Positions 3,222 to 24,003 of a stretch of DNA of 30,746 nt are shown piece after piece. The stretch's first letter is position 1. Each line of letters begins with the position of its first letter. The position numbers were made by a program, and so were the translations under genes. A model generated the notes under the pieces. That model saw only the letters and a list, made by a program, of their open reading frames with translations. It was not told the origin of the DNA and did no database searches. Source of the stretch: a virus; the IMG/VR virus record IMGVR_UViG_3300034109_000671, positions 1 through 30,746 of that record. One strand, 5' to 3'.

Positions 3222-3421
3222 CACAGGGCCTCCACGCCGGGGCCGGATGTCGATGTCGCCCGGTAGGCCGCGGCGGCCGTCTCGGCGAGCTCGACGCACT
3301 GGAGCGCGGCCTCGGTAGGGTCGCGGCCCTGCTCGACGACCTCGAGGGCCAGCCTCACGACCAGGTCATGGGCAAGCTGCCAGGTCCGCTCCTCCCAGTC
3401 AGGACGAAAAGTCGCCACCAT
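3221..3421 (-). CDS. Hypothetical protein of 66 residues
   Basis: A small helical acidic protein beginning MVATFRPDWEERTWQLAHDLV. Its start lies inside the 3' end of the recombinase gene (23-base overlap) and its stop overlaps the next start, so it is tightly packed into the early operon. There is no recognised domain. It looks like a real gene because the frame is bounded by coupled starts and stops on both sides. Confidence 0.5.
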   Translation of the reverse strand: MVATFRPDWEERTWQLAHDLVVRLALEVVEQGRDPTEAALQCVELAETAAAAYRATSTSGPGVEAL

Positions 3422-4247
3422 GATTCCCTCCGTGGATCAGTTCCGGGGTCTTCGGCGCGTTCCGTCGCACCTGGGTCCAGTCGATGTACGCCTTCGCGGC
3501 CAGGTCCATCGTCCGATGGCCCAGGTGATGCCGGGCCTTGCCGGGCTCGGCCATTTCGATGTGGGTCGCGCCGCTCCTGCGGAGCCATTTCGATGTCCCG
3601 CCGATGCCGACCTCGTCGAGGAACTGCCGCATCAGCCGCATGGACTGCCGCTTGCCGACGGCCCAGCCGAGGATCGTCCCGTCCTGCGAGTGGGCGAGCA
3701 TCTCGCGGCAGGCTTCCAGGCAGGCCGGCGAGAGCGTGCGGACGATCGGGTCGCCCGTCTTCGACTGCGTCCACGAGATCGTGTCCCGGTCGATCTGCTC
3801 GCCCCGGAGCGCGAACAGGTCGCCCCACCGGCTCCCGGCCTCGTAGCCGAGCAGCAGCCAGGCCCGCAGCGTGAGCCCCTTCGACGCCCCAGACAGCAGG
3901 AGCTTCCGGTCATACTTCCGCGTCGCCTCGATCGCGGCCCGGAGCTGCTCGACAGTCCAGGCCTTCGTCGGGGCGCGGCGGGCTTTGATCCGGACCACGC
4001 CGCGAGGGGCGTCCTCGATCAGCCGGGACTCGTAAGCCCACCGCCAGAGCGAGACGAGCACGACCCGCTCCGACCGGACCGTGACGCTACTCCGCTCCTC
4101 GGATCGCCGCCGTAGAAACCGATTGACGGCCTCGGCGGTCGGATGCTTGACGAGCTTCGCGATCCTACGGACGTTGTTCCGGTAGGTCGGCGTGACGACC
4201 CGCTCGTCCAGGTATCGCTCCGCGATGTCTGCGAATGTGATGTCCAT
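3399..4247 (-). CDS. Tyrosine recombinase, operon-borne second copy
   Basis: I chose the ATG at 4245-4247 (MDITFADIAERY, preceded by AAGGG) over one 51 bases upstream, which would add a short Arg-rich tail. The 282-residue protein has an N-terminal SAM-like core-binding domain (about 1-90) and a C-terminal catalytic domain. Visible catalytic positions are R140 (GSRWGDLFAL), K163 (TQSKTG), R223 in KWLRR, H244 in LGH and the nucleophile Y254 (AKAYID). The usual His of the HxxR box is Lys220. It lies inside the early operon, not beside attP. It may resolve genome multimers or act with the integrase at 8207, whose RWGD...WTQSKTG core it closely resembles. Confidence 0.85.
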   Translation of the reverse strand: MDITFADIAERYLDERVVTPTYRNNVRRIAKLVKHPTAEAVNRFLRRRSEERSSVTVRSERVVLVSLWRWAYESRLIEDAPRGVVRIKARRAPTKAWTVEQLRAAIEATRKYDRKLLLSGASKGLTLRAWLLLGYEAGSRWGDLFALRGEQIDRDTISWTQSKTGDPIVRTLSPACLEACREMLAHSQDGTILGWAVGKRQSMRLMRQFLDEVGIGGTSKWLRRSGATHIEMAEPGKARHHLGHRTMDLAAKAYIDWTQVRRNAPKTPELIHGGNHGGDFSS

Positions 4248-4264
4248 CGTTTTCCCTTGTGTTG

Positions 4265-4283
4265 GCCCGCGTCTCGTGCGGGC
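4265..4283. other. Short hairpin upstream of the second recombinase
   Basis: GCCCGC and GCGGGC form a perfect 6-bp stem around a 7-base loop, 18 bases before the recombinase start. It would fold in the mRNA leader just before the ribosome binding site. There is no U-run, so it is not a standard terminator; it could tune translation or be chance in GC-rich DNA. Between it and 4415 I see only two copies of GCCGGCGTT (4331-4339 and 4352-4360) in an otherwise gene-free stretch. Confidence 0.35.
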
Positions 4284-4415
4284 GACCGGCCGAGTCACTC
4301 AGCGAAAGGAGGTTTTTCCGAGCCTCGACTGCCGGCGTTGGTCCGCACTAGGCCGGCGTTACGGGCGGATGCGGCTCCGTGCTTCGCCGCTGCGGCCACC
4401 GCGGGCCGGCGGTAG

Positions 4416-8069: not shown

Positions 8070-8149
8070 GGCCAACGGTGCCGCGTGCCGGACTTTCAGG
8101 TTTTGCGGGGCGTTTGACGGGCCTGCGACGGAACGGAGACTGTCGCGAA

Positions 8150-8180
8150 CCTCGCCACGGTGAGGGGGTCGGAACCCCTT
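8150..8180. promoter_or_regulatory. Dyad and hairpin in the integrase leader
   Basis: An imperfect 16-bp dyad (CCTCGCCACGGTGAGG, 8150-8165) runs into a short stem GGGGT-CGGA-ACCCC (8165-8178) about 30 bases before the integrase ATG. These may bind a regulator or fold in the leader RNA. The bases from 8070 to 8149 show no gene and no obvious repeat; they could hold arm-type integrase sites. Confidence 0.35.
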
Positions 8181-8206
8181 GCTGTGGTACGCCTCGAGGT
8201 CGCACC

Positions 8207-9127
8207 ATGTTCCGAAGATCAGGACCGCACACGCTGGGGGAATACGCCCGGACAGGCTACAGCCTGCTCCGGGACGTTCGACCGTCCACCGTCCGGCAAT
8301 ACGTCATCGTGGCCGACCTGTTCGAACGCTGGGCCGGTGGGCCGGTCCCACTCGACCAGCTCGACGAGCGGAGCGTCTCGGAGTGGCTGCGGGACTACTC
8401 GGCCGGCAGGAAGCCCGCCACTGTCCGCGGGAAAAAGAACATGCTCCTCGCCCTCTGGCGGGCGGCCGCCGACGATGGGGCCTGCGAGGAGCCCGTGTCG
8501 CGACGTGTGCGGAAGACCAGGGTCCCGGCCTCGGTGGTCACGGCCTGGACGAAGGCCGAGGTCGAGCAGCTCCTGGCCGCCTGCCACGGCCTGCCGCGCT
8601 GGCACCGCTGCGGACTTCGCCGAAGTGTCTGGTGGGACCTGGCCGTCCGGGTCGCGTGGGACTCTGGCATCCGGTGGGGCGACCAGATCGCCCTCCCGGT
8701 GTCGGCCGTCCGGCCCGACGGGTCGGTCTGCTGGACCCAGTCGAAGACCGGGAAGATCGCCACGTTCCGCTTCAGCCCGTCCACGATGGCGGCCCTGGAG
8801 GCCAGCCTGAAGGCCTGCCCGCGGTCGCTGGTGATGCCGTGGCCGTCCTCACACGAGACATTCCGAGACCAGGTGAAGAGACTCGTGAGGCGGGCCGGCA
8901 TCCGGGCCGGGACATGGAAATGGATCCGCCGGGGGTCCGGCACCGACGTCGAGCTTCAGCAGCCCTACGCCGGCCACCGGCACCTCGGCAACACGCGGGC
9001 CGTGTTCGAGGCCAGCTACGGGGACCAGTCGATCCTCGGCGGCAGCGTGCCGCCGCCGCGCGAGCTGCTCGTGGCGGCGCTTGCCAGTCAAGCCAGGAAA
9101 GATACGGGGGGGGGGGGGGCACTCTAA
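8207..9127 (+). CDS. int: Tyrosine integrase of the phage
   Basis: The start ATG at 8207 follows GAGGT by six bases; the frame is open upstream but across the attP region. The 306-residue protein has a core-binding domain (about 8-95) and a catalytic domain with R156 (GIRWGDQ), K180 (TQSKTG), R241 (in KWIRRG) and nucleophile Y271 (FEASYGD). The usual His of HxxR is Lys238, and the box III His is Asn262 (HLGN). It is the only convincing plus-strand gene, next to the tRNA remnant, so it should carry out attP x attB recombination. Its 3' end holds a 14-G tract encoding GlyGlyGlyGly. Confidence 0.88.
   Translation: MFRRSGPHTLGEYARTGYSLLRDVRPSTVRQYVIVADLFERWAGGPVPLDQLDERSVSEWLRDYSAGRKPATVRGKKNMLLALWRAAADDGACEEPVSRRVRKTRVPASVVTAWTKAEVEQLLAACHGLPRWHRCGLRRSVWWDLAVRVAWDSGIRWGDQIALPVSAVRPDGSVCWTQSKTGKIATFRFSPSTMAALEASLKACPRSLVMPWPSSHETFRDQVKRLVRRAGIRAGTWKWIRRGSGTDVELQQPYAGHRHLGNTRAVFEASYGDQSILGGSVPPPRELLVAALASQARKDTGGGGAL
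9106..9119 (+). repeat. 14-G homopolymer at the integrase 3' end
   Basis: Fourteen consecutive G residues run from 9106 to 9119 and encode the Gly run just before the integrase stop at 9125-9127. Loss of one G would replace AL-stop with a basic tail of about 12 residues; loss of two (or gain of one) would give another tail of about 10 residues. Such tracts vary by polymerase slippage, but could also be an assembly or sequencing error. Confidence 0.9.
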
Positions 9128-19234: not shown

Positions 19235-20452
19235 TCAGTCGACGATGAGCTTCGCCACGAACGAGGCGTCGTGGTTGGCGATGCCCACCCGCTGCGTGCC
19301 GCGGTAGACCACGCTGTCCTTCGCGAAGGAGGCGTGCTCCGAGGCTGCGACCTGGAGGCCGTTCGCCTTGTAGGCCACCGCGGTCGCCATGGCGAAGTCG
19401 CCGTAGAGGGCGAGCGTGCCGGTCGGCAGGCCGAGGCAGCGGTAGACCGGAGCACCCATCACGACCGGGAGGACGCGGTCGCCGATCGTCGTCGACTGCG
19501 TGACCACCGAGGCCTTCATAATGTGGGCCCAGCCGGCCGAGCTCACCACCCAGGCGGTGTTCACCGCCCGGCTGTCGATCTTGCCGACGAGCTCGGCCAG
19601 GTCGACGCCGTCGTTGTCGACGCCCTGGGCGACCGTGTTGTCGTTCGAGATCTCGCCGACGAGGCCGTCGATGCCCTTACCGGCGTCGCCCTGGAGCCAG
19701 ACGGTGTCGATCTTCTTGCCGATGGCAAGAGCGAACCGGTTCGCGACGGTCTGGGCCAGAGCCACCACGGCGGCGGCGTCCTCGGCCAGCTCGTTCGAGA
19801 TCTCGATCAGGCGGCCCATCTTGTGGAGGGCGATCTCGACCTTGTCGGTCGTCATCTCGTCCCCGGTCATGGTGCCCTGCTCGTCGAACCAGCTCGCCTC
19901 GATCTCGCCAATCTTCGGCACGACGATCGAGTTCGAACTGGTCTGGTACAGGCTCGCGACCTGGAGGCCGACCGAGCTGTAGCCGAGGACGTCGATGAAC
20001 CCGCGGAAGAGCTCCGGCGAGACGAGCTCGCTGCCCTTGCCGTCGAACGTGGGCGAGGTCTCGCCCATCGCCCGCATTTCGTTCACGTCGCCACGGGCCA
20101 GGGCCCGCAGGAACCGGCCGGCCTTCGCGGCCGCCTCGTTCGAGCCGAAGCCCTTCGCGTCGCGGCCCGGCATCACATGCACGGCGGGAGCCTTCCGCTC
20201 CTCGACCGTCGCGCGGCTGTCGGAGTCGCTGGCGGCCCGAACGCCACGGAGGGCGGCGACCTTCGCATCGAGGTCGTGCTCGGCCTGGGCGAGCTTCGCC
20301 ACTTCGAGGGCCCGCTCGCCGCGCTCGGCGAGCCGCTGCTCGATCTGCGCCTTCTCGGCGTCGTCCTTGGGCTCGATGGCGCGGAGATCCGTGATCTCCT
20401 TCTCGATCGCGACGGATTCGTCCTGGAGCTGGGCGAGCTTGGCGCTGGGCAT
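19235..20452 (-). CDS. Major capsid protein, HK97 family
   Basis: I chose the ATG at 20450-20452, 9 bases after AAGGA; upstream in-frame starts lie in the leader. The 405-residue protein has an N-terminal coiled-coil scaffold (about 1-70: LAQLQDESVAIEKEITDLRAI... ALEVAKLAQAEHDLDAKVAAL), then the linker PAVHVMPGRD where the prohead protease probably cleaves, and a C-terminal HK97 fold (GSELVSPELFRGFIDVL, SIVVPKIGEIEASWFDEQG, EISNELAEDAAAVVALAQTVANRFALAIGKK, VLPVVMGAPVY). The delta-domain scaffold built into the capsid gene is standard for HK97-like phages. The prohead protease is not adjacent but five or six genes upstream. Confidence 0.9.
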   Translation of the reverse strand: MPSAKLAQLQDESVAIEKEITDLRAIEPKDDAEKAQIEQRLAERGERALEVAKLAQAEHDLDAKVAALRGVRAASDSDSRATVEERKAPAVHVMPGRDAKGFGSNEAAAKAGRFLRALARGDVNEMRAMGETSPTFDGKGSELVSPELFRGFIDVLGYSSVGLQVASLYQTSSNSIVVPKIGEIEASWFDEQGTMTGDEMTTDKVEIALHKMGRLIEISNELAEDAAAVVALAQTVANRFALAIGKKIDTVWLQGDAGKGIDGLVGEISNDNTVAQGVDNDGVDLAELVGKIDSRAVNTAWVVSSAGWAHIMKASVVTQSTTIGDRVLPVVMGAPVYRCLGLPTGTLALYGDFAMATAVAYKANGLQVAASEHASFAKDSVVYRGTQRVGIANHDASFVAKLIVD

Positions 20453-20540
20453 GTTTCGCATCCTTGCGTGGCGTGTACTGGAGTGTGGAAAACCTCCCGC
20501 ACGATATGGGCGATTGCCCGACGCTTGAACTTCCGCGGCC

Positions 20541-20852
20541 CTACCGTAGGACGTTTGGGCAGCGACCATCGGGGCAGGGCGGCGAGGCCTTCGCACGCTC
20601 CGCGACGCAGCGCTTGCAGTCGCACTTGCAGGCCTGCGGGATCCTGCCGTCCGGCTTCCACGTCCCGCGGACGCATGTCTGGCCGCAGTCGCAGGCCGAC
20701 GGCGTTGGGCCCGGCGGCGGGGCGACCTCGAGCAGCATCGACGCCCGCGCCGCCGACACTGCGGCCGCGGCCCGCGGGGACTCGCGGTCGATGGCGGCCG
20801 GGTCGGCCGACAGCCAGACGAGGAACGCGATCAGCCAGTTCCAGAGCCTCAT
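20541..20852 (-). CDS. Secreted or membrane-anchored Cys-rich protein
   Basis: A 103-residue protein with an N-terminal hydrophobic stretch (MRLWNWLIAFLVWLSADPAA, about 1-20) like a signal peptide or anchor. An Ala/Pro-rich linker leads to a C-terminal Cys cluster: ACDCGQTC at about 53-60, ACKCDCKRC at about 74-82 and PPCPDGRC near 91-98, ten cysteines in all. The cluster could be disulfide-bonded outside the cell or bind metal. It belongs to the membrane and protease cassette between prohead protease and capsid. A spanin- or Rz1-like envelope role is possible, but the lipoprotein signal is not clear. Confidence 0.6.
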   Translation of the reverse strand: MRLWNWLIAFLVWLSADPAAIDRESPRAAAAVSAARASMLLEVAPPPGPTPSACDCGQTCVRGTWKPDGRIPQACKCDCKRCVAERAKASPPCPDGRCPNVLR

Positions 20853-20855
20853 AGA

Positions 20856-21113
20856 TCAGAGCCCCCGCGAGTGATCGACCACCGGATAGCCGTCGGCCCC
20901 GATCGCGTGCTGGACCGTCCTGGTGTCGGCGGCCGCTGCCGGGGCCGGCTCCGCGAACACCGCCACCCACAGGAGCGACTTCGCCGCGCGGGCGATCCAT
21001 GTGAGGACCGGCCGGTCGGGGCGGGGCGGTGCCTGGTCCGGCTGGCCGGCGAGCCAATAGCCGATAGCGAAGGCGGCGGCGAGGACGAGTAGGGTCTGGC
21101 GGTCGATCTTCAT
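20856..21113 (-). CDS. Two-helix membrane protein (holin-like candidate)
   Basis: This 85-residue protein has a first membrane segment (TLLVLAAAFAIGYWLAG, about 7-23), a Pro-rich short loop, and a second hydrophobic segment (LTWIARAAKSLLWVAVFAEPA, about 37-57). A soluble tail follows. It overlaps the C1 protease stop by four bases. Two helices with a short loop match the outline of class II holins, and the neighbouring protease suggests a lysis or envelope-processing function. This is inference. Confidence 0.55.
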   Translation of the reverse strand: MKIDRQTLLVLAAAFAIGYWLAGQPDQAPPRPDRPVLTWIARAAKSLLWVAVFAEPAPAAAADTRTVQHAIGADGYPVVDHSRGL

Positions 21114-22258
21114 GGCGCGATCCCGAAGAGGTTGGCGACGCTGGGAACGGAAACAGGCTTGCGGATCTCGGGCGGGGCCGGCATCAGAAACCCGCCGTTG
21201 TCGAGGTCACGCCAGCCGAAGCCGGCGACGGAGCCGACCGCGAAGGAGTCCTTCTGGCCGAGCATCCGCTCGACGGTGGACCGCGCCACCCAGAACGAGC
21301 CGTCCGGCTGGTCGGCCGGGAACTTGCCCTTGTAGGTGATCCACTTCGGGCCCCACGAGTTGAGGCAGAGCAGGGCATCGGAGGGACTGCCGTTCTTCTG
21401 GTATCGGACGGCTATGAAGACCATCTGGTGTGCCCACTGGCCGGAGGCGGCCGCGTAGCCGTGCTGGTCGGTCTGCGACGCGAATCCTTGCATCGACGCG
21501 ACCGGGATCGGGAAGCCCGATTCGATCGCGGCCGCGGCCTCGGCCCAGGTCGTGACCATCGCGACATACTGGGCCGGGTGTTTCTTCGCGAGCTGGTCGA
21601 GCCTGCCGCCGTCGCCCTGGCCGCCGTTGCCGTAGGCTCCCCACTTCTTCGCCCGGTCTGCGGAATAGACGCGGAGGTCGTGGCCGCCGATCTCGGAGCG
21701 GTAGATCACGCCCCAGTCGCGGACCCATCGGGCGGCGGCCGCGCCGTAGCTGCCGTCGCTCCAGCCACCTACCGGCGAGCTGCCGTCGCCGGAGCGGCCG
21801 CGGGCCTCGACGCGCGACCCGCCGTAGATCGCTTCGGTACTCGGGAACGGCGGCGGGTTGGCGAGCCGGCCTGTCTCCCAGTCGATCGCCTGGGCCACAA
21901 AAATTCCATGGGCCCACCCCCACGAGACACAGTCCCCAATGCCCTGCCGCTCGACCACCCACGGCCGGCCGTAGAGGGCCTGGTGAGCCTTGTACGCGGA
22001 CCGATAGAGGAACGTGTCGACGCCCTTCGCCTCGCGGACCGCCTCGGCCCCAGCATCCCGGAACAGCGGCTGGGGCAGCTCCTCGAGGAACCGCTCGACG
22101 CCTTCCGGGTTTGGCGTGTAGCCGAAGTTCTCGTCGCCGTCGCCGAGCCAGGCGACCGGCTGCGGGCCGCGGCTGAGTCCTTCGACCACCGCGACGGCCG
22201 CCACGCCCAGGAGCGCGGCGAAGACGAGCCACCGGACGAGATGTCTATCGCGTTGCAT
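21110..22258 (-). CDS. Membrane-anchored papain-like (C1) cysteine protease
   Basis: This 382-residue protein has an N-terminal hydrophobic helix (LVRWLVFAALLGVAAVAVVEGL, about 7-28), an acidic pro-like segment, and a papain-fold domain. Catalytic residues are visible in order: Q105 and C110 in RQGIGDCVSWGWAHG, H277 in GQWAHQMVFIAV and N300 in LLCLNSWGPKW, matching the Gln, Cys, His and Asn of C1 peptidases. This family is rare in phages. Lying among holin-like membrane genes inside the head module, with no other lytic enzyme seen, it may act as an endolysin-like protease against a protein-rich envelope or process exported proteins. It overlaps the upstream two-TM gene by 14 bases. Confidence 0.8.
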   Translation of the reverse strand: MQRDRHLVRWLVFAALLGVAAVAVVEGLSRGPQPVAWLGDGDENFGYTPNPEGVERFLEELPQPLFRDAGAEAVREAKGVDTFLYRSAYKAHQALYGRPWVVERQGIGDCVSWGWAHGIFVAQAIDWETGRLANPPPFPSTEAIYGGSRVEARGRSGDGSSPVGGWSDGSYGAAAARWVRDWGVIYRSEIGGHDLRVYSADRAKKWGAYGNGGQGDGGRLDQLAKKHPAQYVAMVTTWAEAAAAIESGFPIPVASMQGFASQTDQHGYAAASGQWAHQMVFIAVRYQKNGSPSDALLCLNSWGPKWITYKGKFPADQPDGSFWVARSTVERMLGQKDSFAVGSVAGFGWRDLDNGGFLMPAPPEIRKPVSVPSVANLFGIAP

Positions 22259-22817
22259 CGGCGGCGGCCCTCGCGACTGTGCGGTAGGCAGAGACCCAGG
22301 CCGACCGCTGGGCCGGCGTCAGCGGCCCGCCCGACGTGCCGGCGGTCCGGTCGAGGTAGTCCTTGATCGCAGAGCGGGCCCGCGGGTATCGCTCGCCCAG
22401 CGACTGGCCGCGAAGCCGGAGGTCGAAGGCCCGGACGCGGAGGTCGTCGAACGCGACGCCGGTCCGGATCAGCGGCTCGACTTGCATCGCATCCCACTCG
22501 ACCTCGGCCGCGAGCTCGTCGAACATGGCGGAGATCGTGGCGGCATCGACCGAGGCATCGGGCCCGACGAACGTCCCGCGGAGGACGAGCTCGGCATCGG
22601 GGGCGGGGCCGGGGGCCGGGGTCGGCTGCGGGGCCGACGAGCTGCTCGACTGCCACGCGATGGCGGCGGCCGCCAGCAGGGCCGCGCCGATCATGTGACG
22701 CCGCTCGAGCTGCGGGAGGTTGACCAGGCCGGCGGCCTTCCGGATCTGCTCGAGCACCTGGGGGCCGGCGAGGGCGTAGGCGGCCCCGGCCGCCAGGAGA
22801 ACGACGAGCCAGTTCAT
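22245..22817 (-). CDS. Membrane protein with periplasmic-type domain
   Basis: A 190-residue protein: first helix WLVVLLAAGAAYALAG (about 3-18), second MIGAALLAAAAIAWQ (about 42-56), then a Ser/Pro-rich linker (SSSSSAPQPTPAPGPAPDAE) and a C-terminal helical domain (FDELAAEVEWDAMQVEPLIRTG ... SAWVSAYRTVARAAADATR). The design, two membrane segments and an extended Pro linker to an envelope domain, fits a holin, spanin or scaffold for the C1 protease. It begins two bases before the stop of the 122-residue gene. No known family. Confidence 0.55.
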   Translation of the reverse strand: MNWLVVLLAAGAAYALAGPQVLEQIRKAAGLVNLPQLERRHMIGAALLAAAAIAWQSSSSSAPQPTPAPGPAPDAELVLRGTFVGPDASVDAATISAMFDELAAEVEWDAMQVEPLIRTGVAFDDLRVRAFDLRLRGQSLGERYPRARSAIKDYLDRTAGTSGGPLTPAQRSAWVSAYRTVARAAADATR

Positions 22818-22818
22818 G

Positions 22819-23187
22819 TCATGCCCTCACGAGCGGGAGGATCTGCTCGACGGCCCCGGCGGCGAGCGCCACCACGAGCTGCCGGACGGCGGGCCTGGCG
22901 AGCAGCCAGAGCGGGTAGAGGTAGGCCGGAACCGCCTGGTCGGCCACGGCGTCGAACAGCAGGCCGACGGCCTCCAGGACCATCGCCTTCTTCTGCGGGC
23001 CGGTCAGGACGGAGACGGCGTCGAGGCTTTCGACGAGCAGCCGCACGAGGGCCACCATCAGCTCGCCGAACTCGGCCCACGTCAGGCCGTCGGCGGCGGC
23101 CGACTGGGCTGTGGCGATGTAGGCCTTCACCTTGTCGAACATGCCAGCCACGCTCGACGCGGCGGCGACTGGGGCTTCGGCGATCAT
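22819..23187 (-). CDS. Helical protein with hydrophobic C-terminus
   Basis: The ATG at 23185-23187 overlaps the zinc-ribbon stop (ATGA), giving 122 residues starting MIAEAPVAAASSVAGMFDKVKAYI. The middle holds amphipathic helices (GELMVALVRLLVESLDAVSVLTG) and the C-terminal third is hydrophobic (YLYPLWLLARPAVRQLVVALAAGAVEQIL). It starts the membrane and protease cassette. It might associate with membranes or bind the capsid; no recognised domain. Confidence 0.5.
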   Translation of the reverse strand: MIAEAPVAAASSVAGMFDKVKAYIATAQSAAADGLTWAEFGELMVALVRLLVESLDAVSVLTGPQKKAMVLEAVGLLFDAVADQAVPAYLYPLWLLARPAVRQLVVALAAGAVEQILPLVRA

Positions 23188-23339
23188 CGCTTCCTTCTCC
23201 AGACGGTATCGGCCGGCACCACCTGGCGGCGGCGCTCGCGGCAGCACTGGCACTCGACGTAGCGGACCTGGCGGTCGCCGGCCCGCTTGCTCGACTCGAC
23301 GCGGCAGCGGCCGCCGCACTTTGAACAGCTAGCCGGCAT
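23184..23339 (-). CDS. Small zinc-ribbon protein (Com-like)
   Basis: A 51-residue protein from the ATG at 23337-23339, which lies inside the prohead protease 3' end. It has CSKCGG and YVECQCC pairs, the classic two-CxxC zinc ribbon of small phage proteins, with many Arg residues and a basic C-terminus. Some such proteins regulate translation (phage Mu Com). The Cys spacing is the only evidence. Confidence 0.6.
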   Translation of the reverse strand: MPASCSKCGGRCRVESSKRAGDRQVRYVECQCCRERRRQVVPADTVWRRKR

Positions 23340-24003
23340 GGGCTCGCATCCTCGCGACGGCGGCCGCGGCGGCGGCTTTCGCGCCGGCGAGGCGGTCCAC
23401 ACGAACAGCCTCGGACCTCTCGGCAATGTCGCGCTGCTCGGCGGCCGTGAGGTTCTCGGCTCGCCACTTCTCCAGCGACCGGACGGCTACGCTCGTCGCG
23501 TTTCCGTAGGCGGCGTGCGTGACGACCGAAACATCGAACAGGCCGGAGAACTCGTGGATCGTCCGCGTCGCGATCCCTCTCTCGTCCTGGCCCCATGTCT
23601 CGCCCTTCTTCGGGTCGACCGTGAAGGCGAATGAGCTGCCGAACAGGTCGCGCCGACGGATGAGGGTCGTCACGTCGCGGCCGAGCTGCGTATCGGGCGG
23701 GTCGATCTCGTAGTTCAGGCCGCGCTCGTCGGTCGCGAGGCGCAGCGTCCCGGACAGCGTCCGCCCCAGCGGCTGGCCTTCGTGATCGAAGAGCGCCACC
23801 ACGTCGAGCTTCCGCTTCGACAGGACGCGGTCAAACGCGCCGGGCTCGATGACTTCCCGAAAGCCTCCGAGGTCGAGCGACCACTTCTGGTAGGCGGCAG
23901 CCAGGCCGCGAATCTTCGGCGACTCGTCGCCGCGGATTTCGATGGTGGCCTCTTCGGTCTCGTCTTCGACGATCGCGTAGAACCGGCGTTCAAGGTCAAG
24001 CAT
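23329..24003 (-). CDS. HK97-type prohead protease (S78/U35)
   Basis: The 224-residue protein has the domain outline of caudoviral prohead proteases: GLAAAYQKWSLDLGGFREVIEPGAF at about 33-57, the catalytic His74 in ALFDHEGQPLGRT, the serine motif FGSSFAF (S123/S124), and GLFDVSVVTHAAYGNATSVAVR at about 152-173. It would cleave the capsid scaffold and then itself during prohead maturation. It starts within the last bases of the portal gene. Its C-terminus is helical and Ala-rich. Confidence 0.85.
   Translation of the reverse strand: MLDLERRFYAIVEDETEEATIEIRGDESPKIRGLAAAYQKWSLDLGGFREVIEPGAFDRVLSKRKLDVVALFDHEGQPLGRTLSGTLRLATDERGLNYEIDPPDTQLGRDVTTLIRRRDLFGSSFAFTVDPKKGETWGQDERGIATRTIHEFSGLFDVSVVTHAAYGNATSVAVRSLEKWRAENLTAAEQRDIAERSEAVRVDRLAGAKAAAAAAVARMRAHAG

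Follow-up and report, generated by a model that had tools for sequence, protein, structure and literature searches.

A cassette built around a predicted papain-fold protease as a candidate lysis module of putative planctomycete phages

A cassette of small membrane and exported proteins grouped around a papain-like cysteine protease, C1, probably serves a group of phages as a module for host lysis or egress, with the protease as the lytic enzyme; we put the probability of this reading at roughly 0.6. Its computed basis consists of the fold of C1, the conservation of the active site, the gene set, the exchange of the cassette for a second kit, the late placement, the lack of hits to the lytic families tested and selection in Blastopirellula. 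We infer membrane topology, protease activity, the substrate, a holin role of the helical protein hel and lysis itself.

The window, meaning the whole stretch of DNA that was analysed, is a complete IMG/VR record of 30,746 bases with nearly all genes on the minus strand. In the head part these genes encode TerS, TerL, portal, S78 protease, the cassette, capsid and head-tail adaptor, and in the remainder tail terminator, tail chaperone, tape measure, metallophosphoesterase, dNMP kinase, Sak4 annealing protein, integrase and replication initiator. Two different tyrosine-recombinase-like genes are present, at 3399-4298 (minus strand) and 8078-9127 (plus strand), the latter being the sole plus-strand gene called in the window. 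Related contigs measure 30-35 kb, and G014 (35,054 bases) appears nearly complete, with a few small and tail-fibre-like genes missing from the window ends. The host is presumably a planctomycete, since relatives sit in Planctomycetota genomes; one relative was found in a genome labelled Alphaproteobacteria, possibly through a binning error.

The cassette follows the genes for the portal and the S78 prohead protease (23329..24003, minus strand; PF04586, 5.4e-37) and precedes the major capsid protein ORF (19235..20596, minus strand; PF05065, 4.7e-23), whose codon use points to a start at about 20461; these two genes are the upstream and downstream borders of what we call the slot. A sequence-only reading of the window had proposed five genes here, for a helical protein, a two-TM protein with a Pro-rich linker, a C1 protease, a two-helix protein and a Cys-rich protein, and all five are real: they are closely packed minus-strand ORFs with codon composition of the coding type. 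The first, hel (22819..23187), encodes a helical protein of 122 aa common to the cassette type of the window (type A) and the alternative type B. It is followed by 2TM (22245..22817, 190 aa), with hydrophobic stretches near residues 4 and 42, a Ser/Pro-rich linker and a helical C-terminal part, and by C1 (21110..22258, 382 aa), which 2TM always adjoins. The last two are g85 (20856..21113, 85 aa), with two hydrophobic stretches, and cys103 (20541..20852, 103 aa), with a hydrophobic N-terminus and a Cys-rich C-terminal half. A sixth small ORF of the same run, zr80 (23184..23339, minus strand), lies upstream of hel and encodes a zinc-ribbon mini-protein of about 50 residues; it starts within the S78 gene, overlaps the hel start and is retained by many relatives with type A and by some with type B. 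The five cassette genes overlap or are separated by at most 3 bases, an operon-like packing: zr80/hel and C1/g85 have ATGA overlaps, 2TM and C1 overlap by 14 bases, and 1 base separates hel from 2TM.

The labels "holin-like" and "secreted" for the small cassette proteins are hydropathy readings, and none of the cassette proteins matched a known family of holins, spanins or endolysins. The holin candidate hel is only moderately hydrophobic and has no family match in Pfam, PHROGs or NCBIfam; like the small TM proteins, which also lack a family match, it was assessed as a holin by hydropathy only. As for spanins, hydrophobic stretches occur in g85 and 2TM, and the cys103 of the window has no lipobox cysteine.

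The AF2 structure of C1, computed from 33 natural sequences (pLDDT 83.8, pTM 0.79), has a papain fold, as the sequence-only reading had supposed. Its best structural match in the PDB is xylellain (Z 21.8, 241 residues, 3.2 A); procathepsins (Z 18-19), the S-layer-associated protease Cwp84 (Z 17.5) and papain 1ppn (Z 16.9) also match. The model points to a papain-fold, C1-like protease that is not a Pfam member: C1 had no match in Pfam, PHROGs, NCBIfam, PDB phmmer or a PDB sequence profile search, and against Pfam Peptidase_C1 (PF00112) the C1 of the window gave no match, the best value (E 0.23) being reached in one of the 33 members. The four proposed active-site residues are conserved among the distinct C1 sequences covering the site (Q105 and C110 in 138/138, H277 in 139/139, N300 in 136/138). 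They supply, in this order, the oxyanion-hole Gln, the catalytic Cys, the His and the Asn, with an NSWG-type motif, as in C1A peptidases (papain, cathepsins, xylellain, C. difficile Cwp84). C1 also resembles these enzymes in its fold over ~240 residues and in its predicted extracytoplasmic location; unlike them, it lies beyond the reach of Pfam and PDB profiles, has a predicted N-terminal membrane anchor and belongs to a phage late cassette. Residues 3-29 form a hydrophobic helix, and because positive charges precede it, hydropathy and charge predict an N-in TM anchor with the catalytic domain outside the cytoplasm. A reading of C1 as a degraded protease was dropped, given the conserved active site and a pN/pS of 0.16.

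C1 has relatives encoded in at least 579 IMG/VR stretches, and a chance-ORF reading of the protease was dropped on that account. The type A genes travel together as one unit: where flanks suffice, C1 is accompanied by 2TM in 67/67 cases, by hel in 65/67, by cys103 in 62/62 and by g85 in 61/62. In 32 of the 38 loci with long flanks the cassette lies between S78 and capsid. A tblastn search of INPHARED phages returned no relative of C1 or papB, the corresponding type B protein. A YeaQ/Transgly_assoc (PF04226) membrane protein is joined to the cassette in two phages (L160:11532-11789, L162:3282-3533).

What fills the slot between prohead protease and capsid can be exchanged: it is either type A or the unrelated type B. 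Visible slots in capsid-anchored loci contained 28 A, 2 B and 0 neither; portal-anchored loci gave 29 A, 3 B and 0 neither, and hel-anchored loci 27 A, 7 B and 0 neither, the three locus sets overlapping. The two type B exceptions among the capsid-anchored loci keep hel and have the remainder replaced. A normal endolysin as an occasional occupant was not seen with capsid, portal or hel anchors.

Type B cassettes in the same slot (L118:5842-8844, L121:4800-8251, L165-L244) carry genes for a small helical protein, a TM protein, an exported protein, papB, a secreted trypsin-like protease and two more small proteins, one of which has a clear TM. The secreted protease matches Trypsin_2 (E 1e-19 to 3e-21) and has a CxxC zinc-ribbon-like N-terminus. 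With 290 residues and invariant C83 and H235, papB is probably a second papain-like protein, a weaker case than C1: its model has a pLDDT of 65 and no Foldseek match below 0.001, and the best aligned chains are of the papain family, with Z up to 12. The papB search returned at least 96 relatives with the same type B gene order. Each of nine full or nearly full contigs carries one kit, A or B. In L241-L243 (25-71 kb contigs) the exported protein and papB occur without the other type B genes. Exported thioredoxin-like proteins (CxxC) are encoded in or beside protease cassettes (L085:9355-9924, L083:2647-3219, L242:6870-7727), and in Blastopirellula such a protein occupies the position of cys103; with partners of this kind at or next to the cys103 position, the catalytic cysteine may be under redox control.

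The location inside the head module, which had seemed odd in the sequence-only reading, is true of the window but proved to be one exchangeable slot, and cassettes also occur elsewhere. Off the slot, both kits often stand last in the late operon, adjoining opposite-strand integrase or early genes (L021, L067, L068, L080, L196, L213/L214). In Blastopirellula the cassette directly precedes the terminase, G016 combines the same cassette with an unrelated head module (lambda-type portal PF05136, GpA-type terminase PF20454), and in G015, where hel was not detected, it lies among tail-fibre-like genes and not at the operon end. Such placement is as expected of a lysis module and unlike that of a head-specific gene; a head-specific role was dropped because the cassette moves. 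Gene order and strand place the cassette among the late genes, in all relatives and once per genome, as in a lysis cassette, and the lysis-type reading suggested for the window fits this position and universality.

A head-tail cluster of ~25 kb occupies the same host locus in four genomes, those of Blastopirellula marina DSM 3645 (L373-L375) and three members of its family (L376-L378, L403-L404, L405-L406), with the order hel-2TM-C1-(g85)-thioredoxin-TerS-TerL-portal-protease-capsid-tail. No integrase or replication genes were recognised in it. Between B. marina and G153 the synonymous difference is mostly 0.42-0.72 in the cluster, overlapping the 0.58-0.68 of the larger flanking host genes, and pN/pS is 0.16 for C1, 0.15 for TerL, 0.08 for capsid and 0.13-0.33 for the larger flanking host genes. 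The cluster looks vertically inherited and under purifying selection, with the protease among the better conserved proteins. Known from genes alone, it resembles a gene transfer agent: as in the Rhodobacter RcGTA type, head and tail genes form a cluster that appears to be vertically inherited and in which no integrase or replication gene is recognised, a likeness confined to the Blastopirellula cluster, which unlike that type has its own protease cassette beside the terminase. In the literature (titles and abstracts) no planctomycete gene transfer agent came up. In G352 a further, diverged copy of the cluster lies elsewhere in the genome.

Six-frame profile searches with positive controls detected no Amidase_2 in 14 contigs and no Amidase_3, Phage_lysozyme, SLT, NlpC/P60, M23, CHAP or M15_3 in 25 contigs including the window. 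PHROGs recognised no lytic enzyme among ~35 window proteins, and Pfam found no lytic family among those genes of the window, G014, G022 and the Blastopirellula cluster that had been left unannotated; the unannotated genes of G015 were covered by six-frame searches and a Pfam scan of 135 proteins (25 of 73 families listed). That no lytic enzyme is recognisable in the window had been said before, and these searches agree and extend the absence of a normal endolysin, for the families tested, to related long contigs. Lysins of families beyond those searched may be present. The cassette itself contains no member of a known muralytic family, and for this reason we say that it works like, and not that it is, a classical holin-endolysin cassette. 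Because a protease and membrane kit is always present and no known wall-dissolving enzyme was found, phages with either kit probably open the host cell by proteases.

Under the egress reading, the phage would produce the small membrane proteins hel, 2TM and g85 late in infection, along with a small Cys-rich protein that is exported. C1 would be fixed in the inner membrane by its anchor, the catalytic domain lying beyond the cytoplasm. It would act as the lytic enzyme and cut peptides of the envelope, either the stem or cross-link peptides of peptidoglycan or structural proteins; setting the timing or breaking the membranes would fall to the membrane proteins. Related phages would exchange all of the kit except hel for type B, with its probable papain-like protein and secreted trypsin-like protease. 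Tentatively, this can be widened to a Gram-negative-type envelope opened by papain-like proteases (in type B also a trypsin-like one) that replace the glycan- or amide-cutting endolysin, in interchangeable kits whose catalytic cysteine may be controlled by thioredoxin-like or Cys-rich exported partners, and which Blastopirellula retains in a domesticated element similar to a gene transfer agent.

Several points count against the egress reading. The interval from prohead protease to capsid is an unusual place for lysis genes; the cassette proteins match no known holin, spanin or endolysin family, the hydrophobicity of hel is moderate, and in G015 the cassette lies away from the operon end and no hel was detected. 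Muralytic activity would also be expected, since planctomycetes have a lysozyme-sensitive peptidoglycan sacculus (PMC4432640). The same fact weakens the earlier argument from a protein-rich envelope and makes wall peptides as likely a substrate of C1 as envelope proteins. It also favours an account in which the cassette aids egress without being the main lysin: the wall would be cut by a muralytic enzyme that escaped recognition, for instance in a tail gene or a small unknown gene, and the kit would strip outer-envelope or surface proteins in a spanin-like manner. Several genes in the sets searched remain without any family, which leaves room for such an enzyme, yet eight lytic families are absent from the contigs tested and no lytic family turned up among the genes left without annotation in four gene sets; we consider this account unlikely.

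Still less likely, in our estimate, is that the cassette alters the cell surface during infection or lysogeny, by superinfection exclusion or receptor removal, and causes no lysis. A predicted outward membrane protease with exported partners would suit surface work, as would the trypsin-like exported protease of type B, but exclusion genes are usually accessory, and here no relative with a visible slot lacks a kit, the kit is packed among late structural genes, and the Blastopirellula cluster keeps it without a recognised integrase. That C1 is a morphogenesis or virion protease, acting during assembly or entry to process proteins of the head, the tail or the host surface, we judge improbable. 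Its place between prohead protease and capsid in the window speaks for such a role; the virion or host-surface processing raised in the sequence-only reading nevertheless becomes less likely because G016 pairs the cassette with an unrelated head module and the protease is predicted to face outward from a TM anchor. Other cassettes lie outside the head module, and an S78 protease is already there.

Among known lysis proteins, SAR endolysins would resemble C1 in having an N-terminal TM segment and an outward catalytic domain, a topology predicted for C1 from hydropathy and charge. Known SAR endolysins are muralytic, whereas C1 is a predicted protease, and compared with their weakly hydrophobic TM, that of C1 is fairly hydrophobic (mean 2.3; Gly/Ala/Ser/Thr/Cys ~40%). 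Cysteine proteases have been predicted as phage lysins before; what sets this cassette apart from them is the family, the anchor, the gene set and the kit swap. For Leptospira transposable prophages, a cysteine-protease endolysin with a holin/antiholin pair was predicted (PMC8705779); compared by description, the part of that account considered here describes no kit swap and no exported Cys-rich or thioredoxin partner. Mycobacteriophage LysA has a papain-like N5 peptidase domain (PMC3314691), and a viral fold search with C1 gave mycobacteriophage Lysin A at E 1.4e-4 over a short overlap. C1 and LysA share a papain-like peptidase domain, but N5 is the N-terminal domain of a multidomain endolysin, is C39-like by HHPred and has no membrane anchor (PMC3314691).

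Titles and abstracts in the literature yielded nothing on lysis by planctomycete phages. If the egress reading is true, hundreds of viral contigs carry lysis proteins of a class that Pfam, PHROGs and NCBIfam do not cover, annotators could name the lysis locus of these phages, new envelope-active proteases would be available, and one could test directly which envelope component holds planctomycetes together; the cluster common to Blastopirellula genomes offers a cultured host for study. Chromosomal C1 relatives in Mucilaginibacter (L087:7860-8774, L088) are uninformative on lysis, since they lack the N-terminal anchor and have bacterial rather than phage neighbours. The neighbours of one such relative include polysaccharide-deacetylase-like and glycosyltransferase-like genes.
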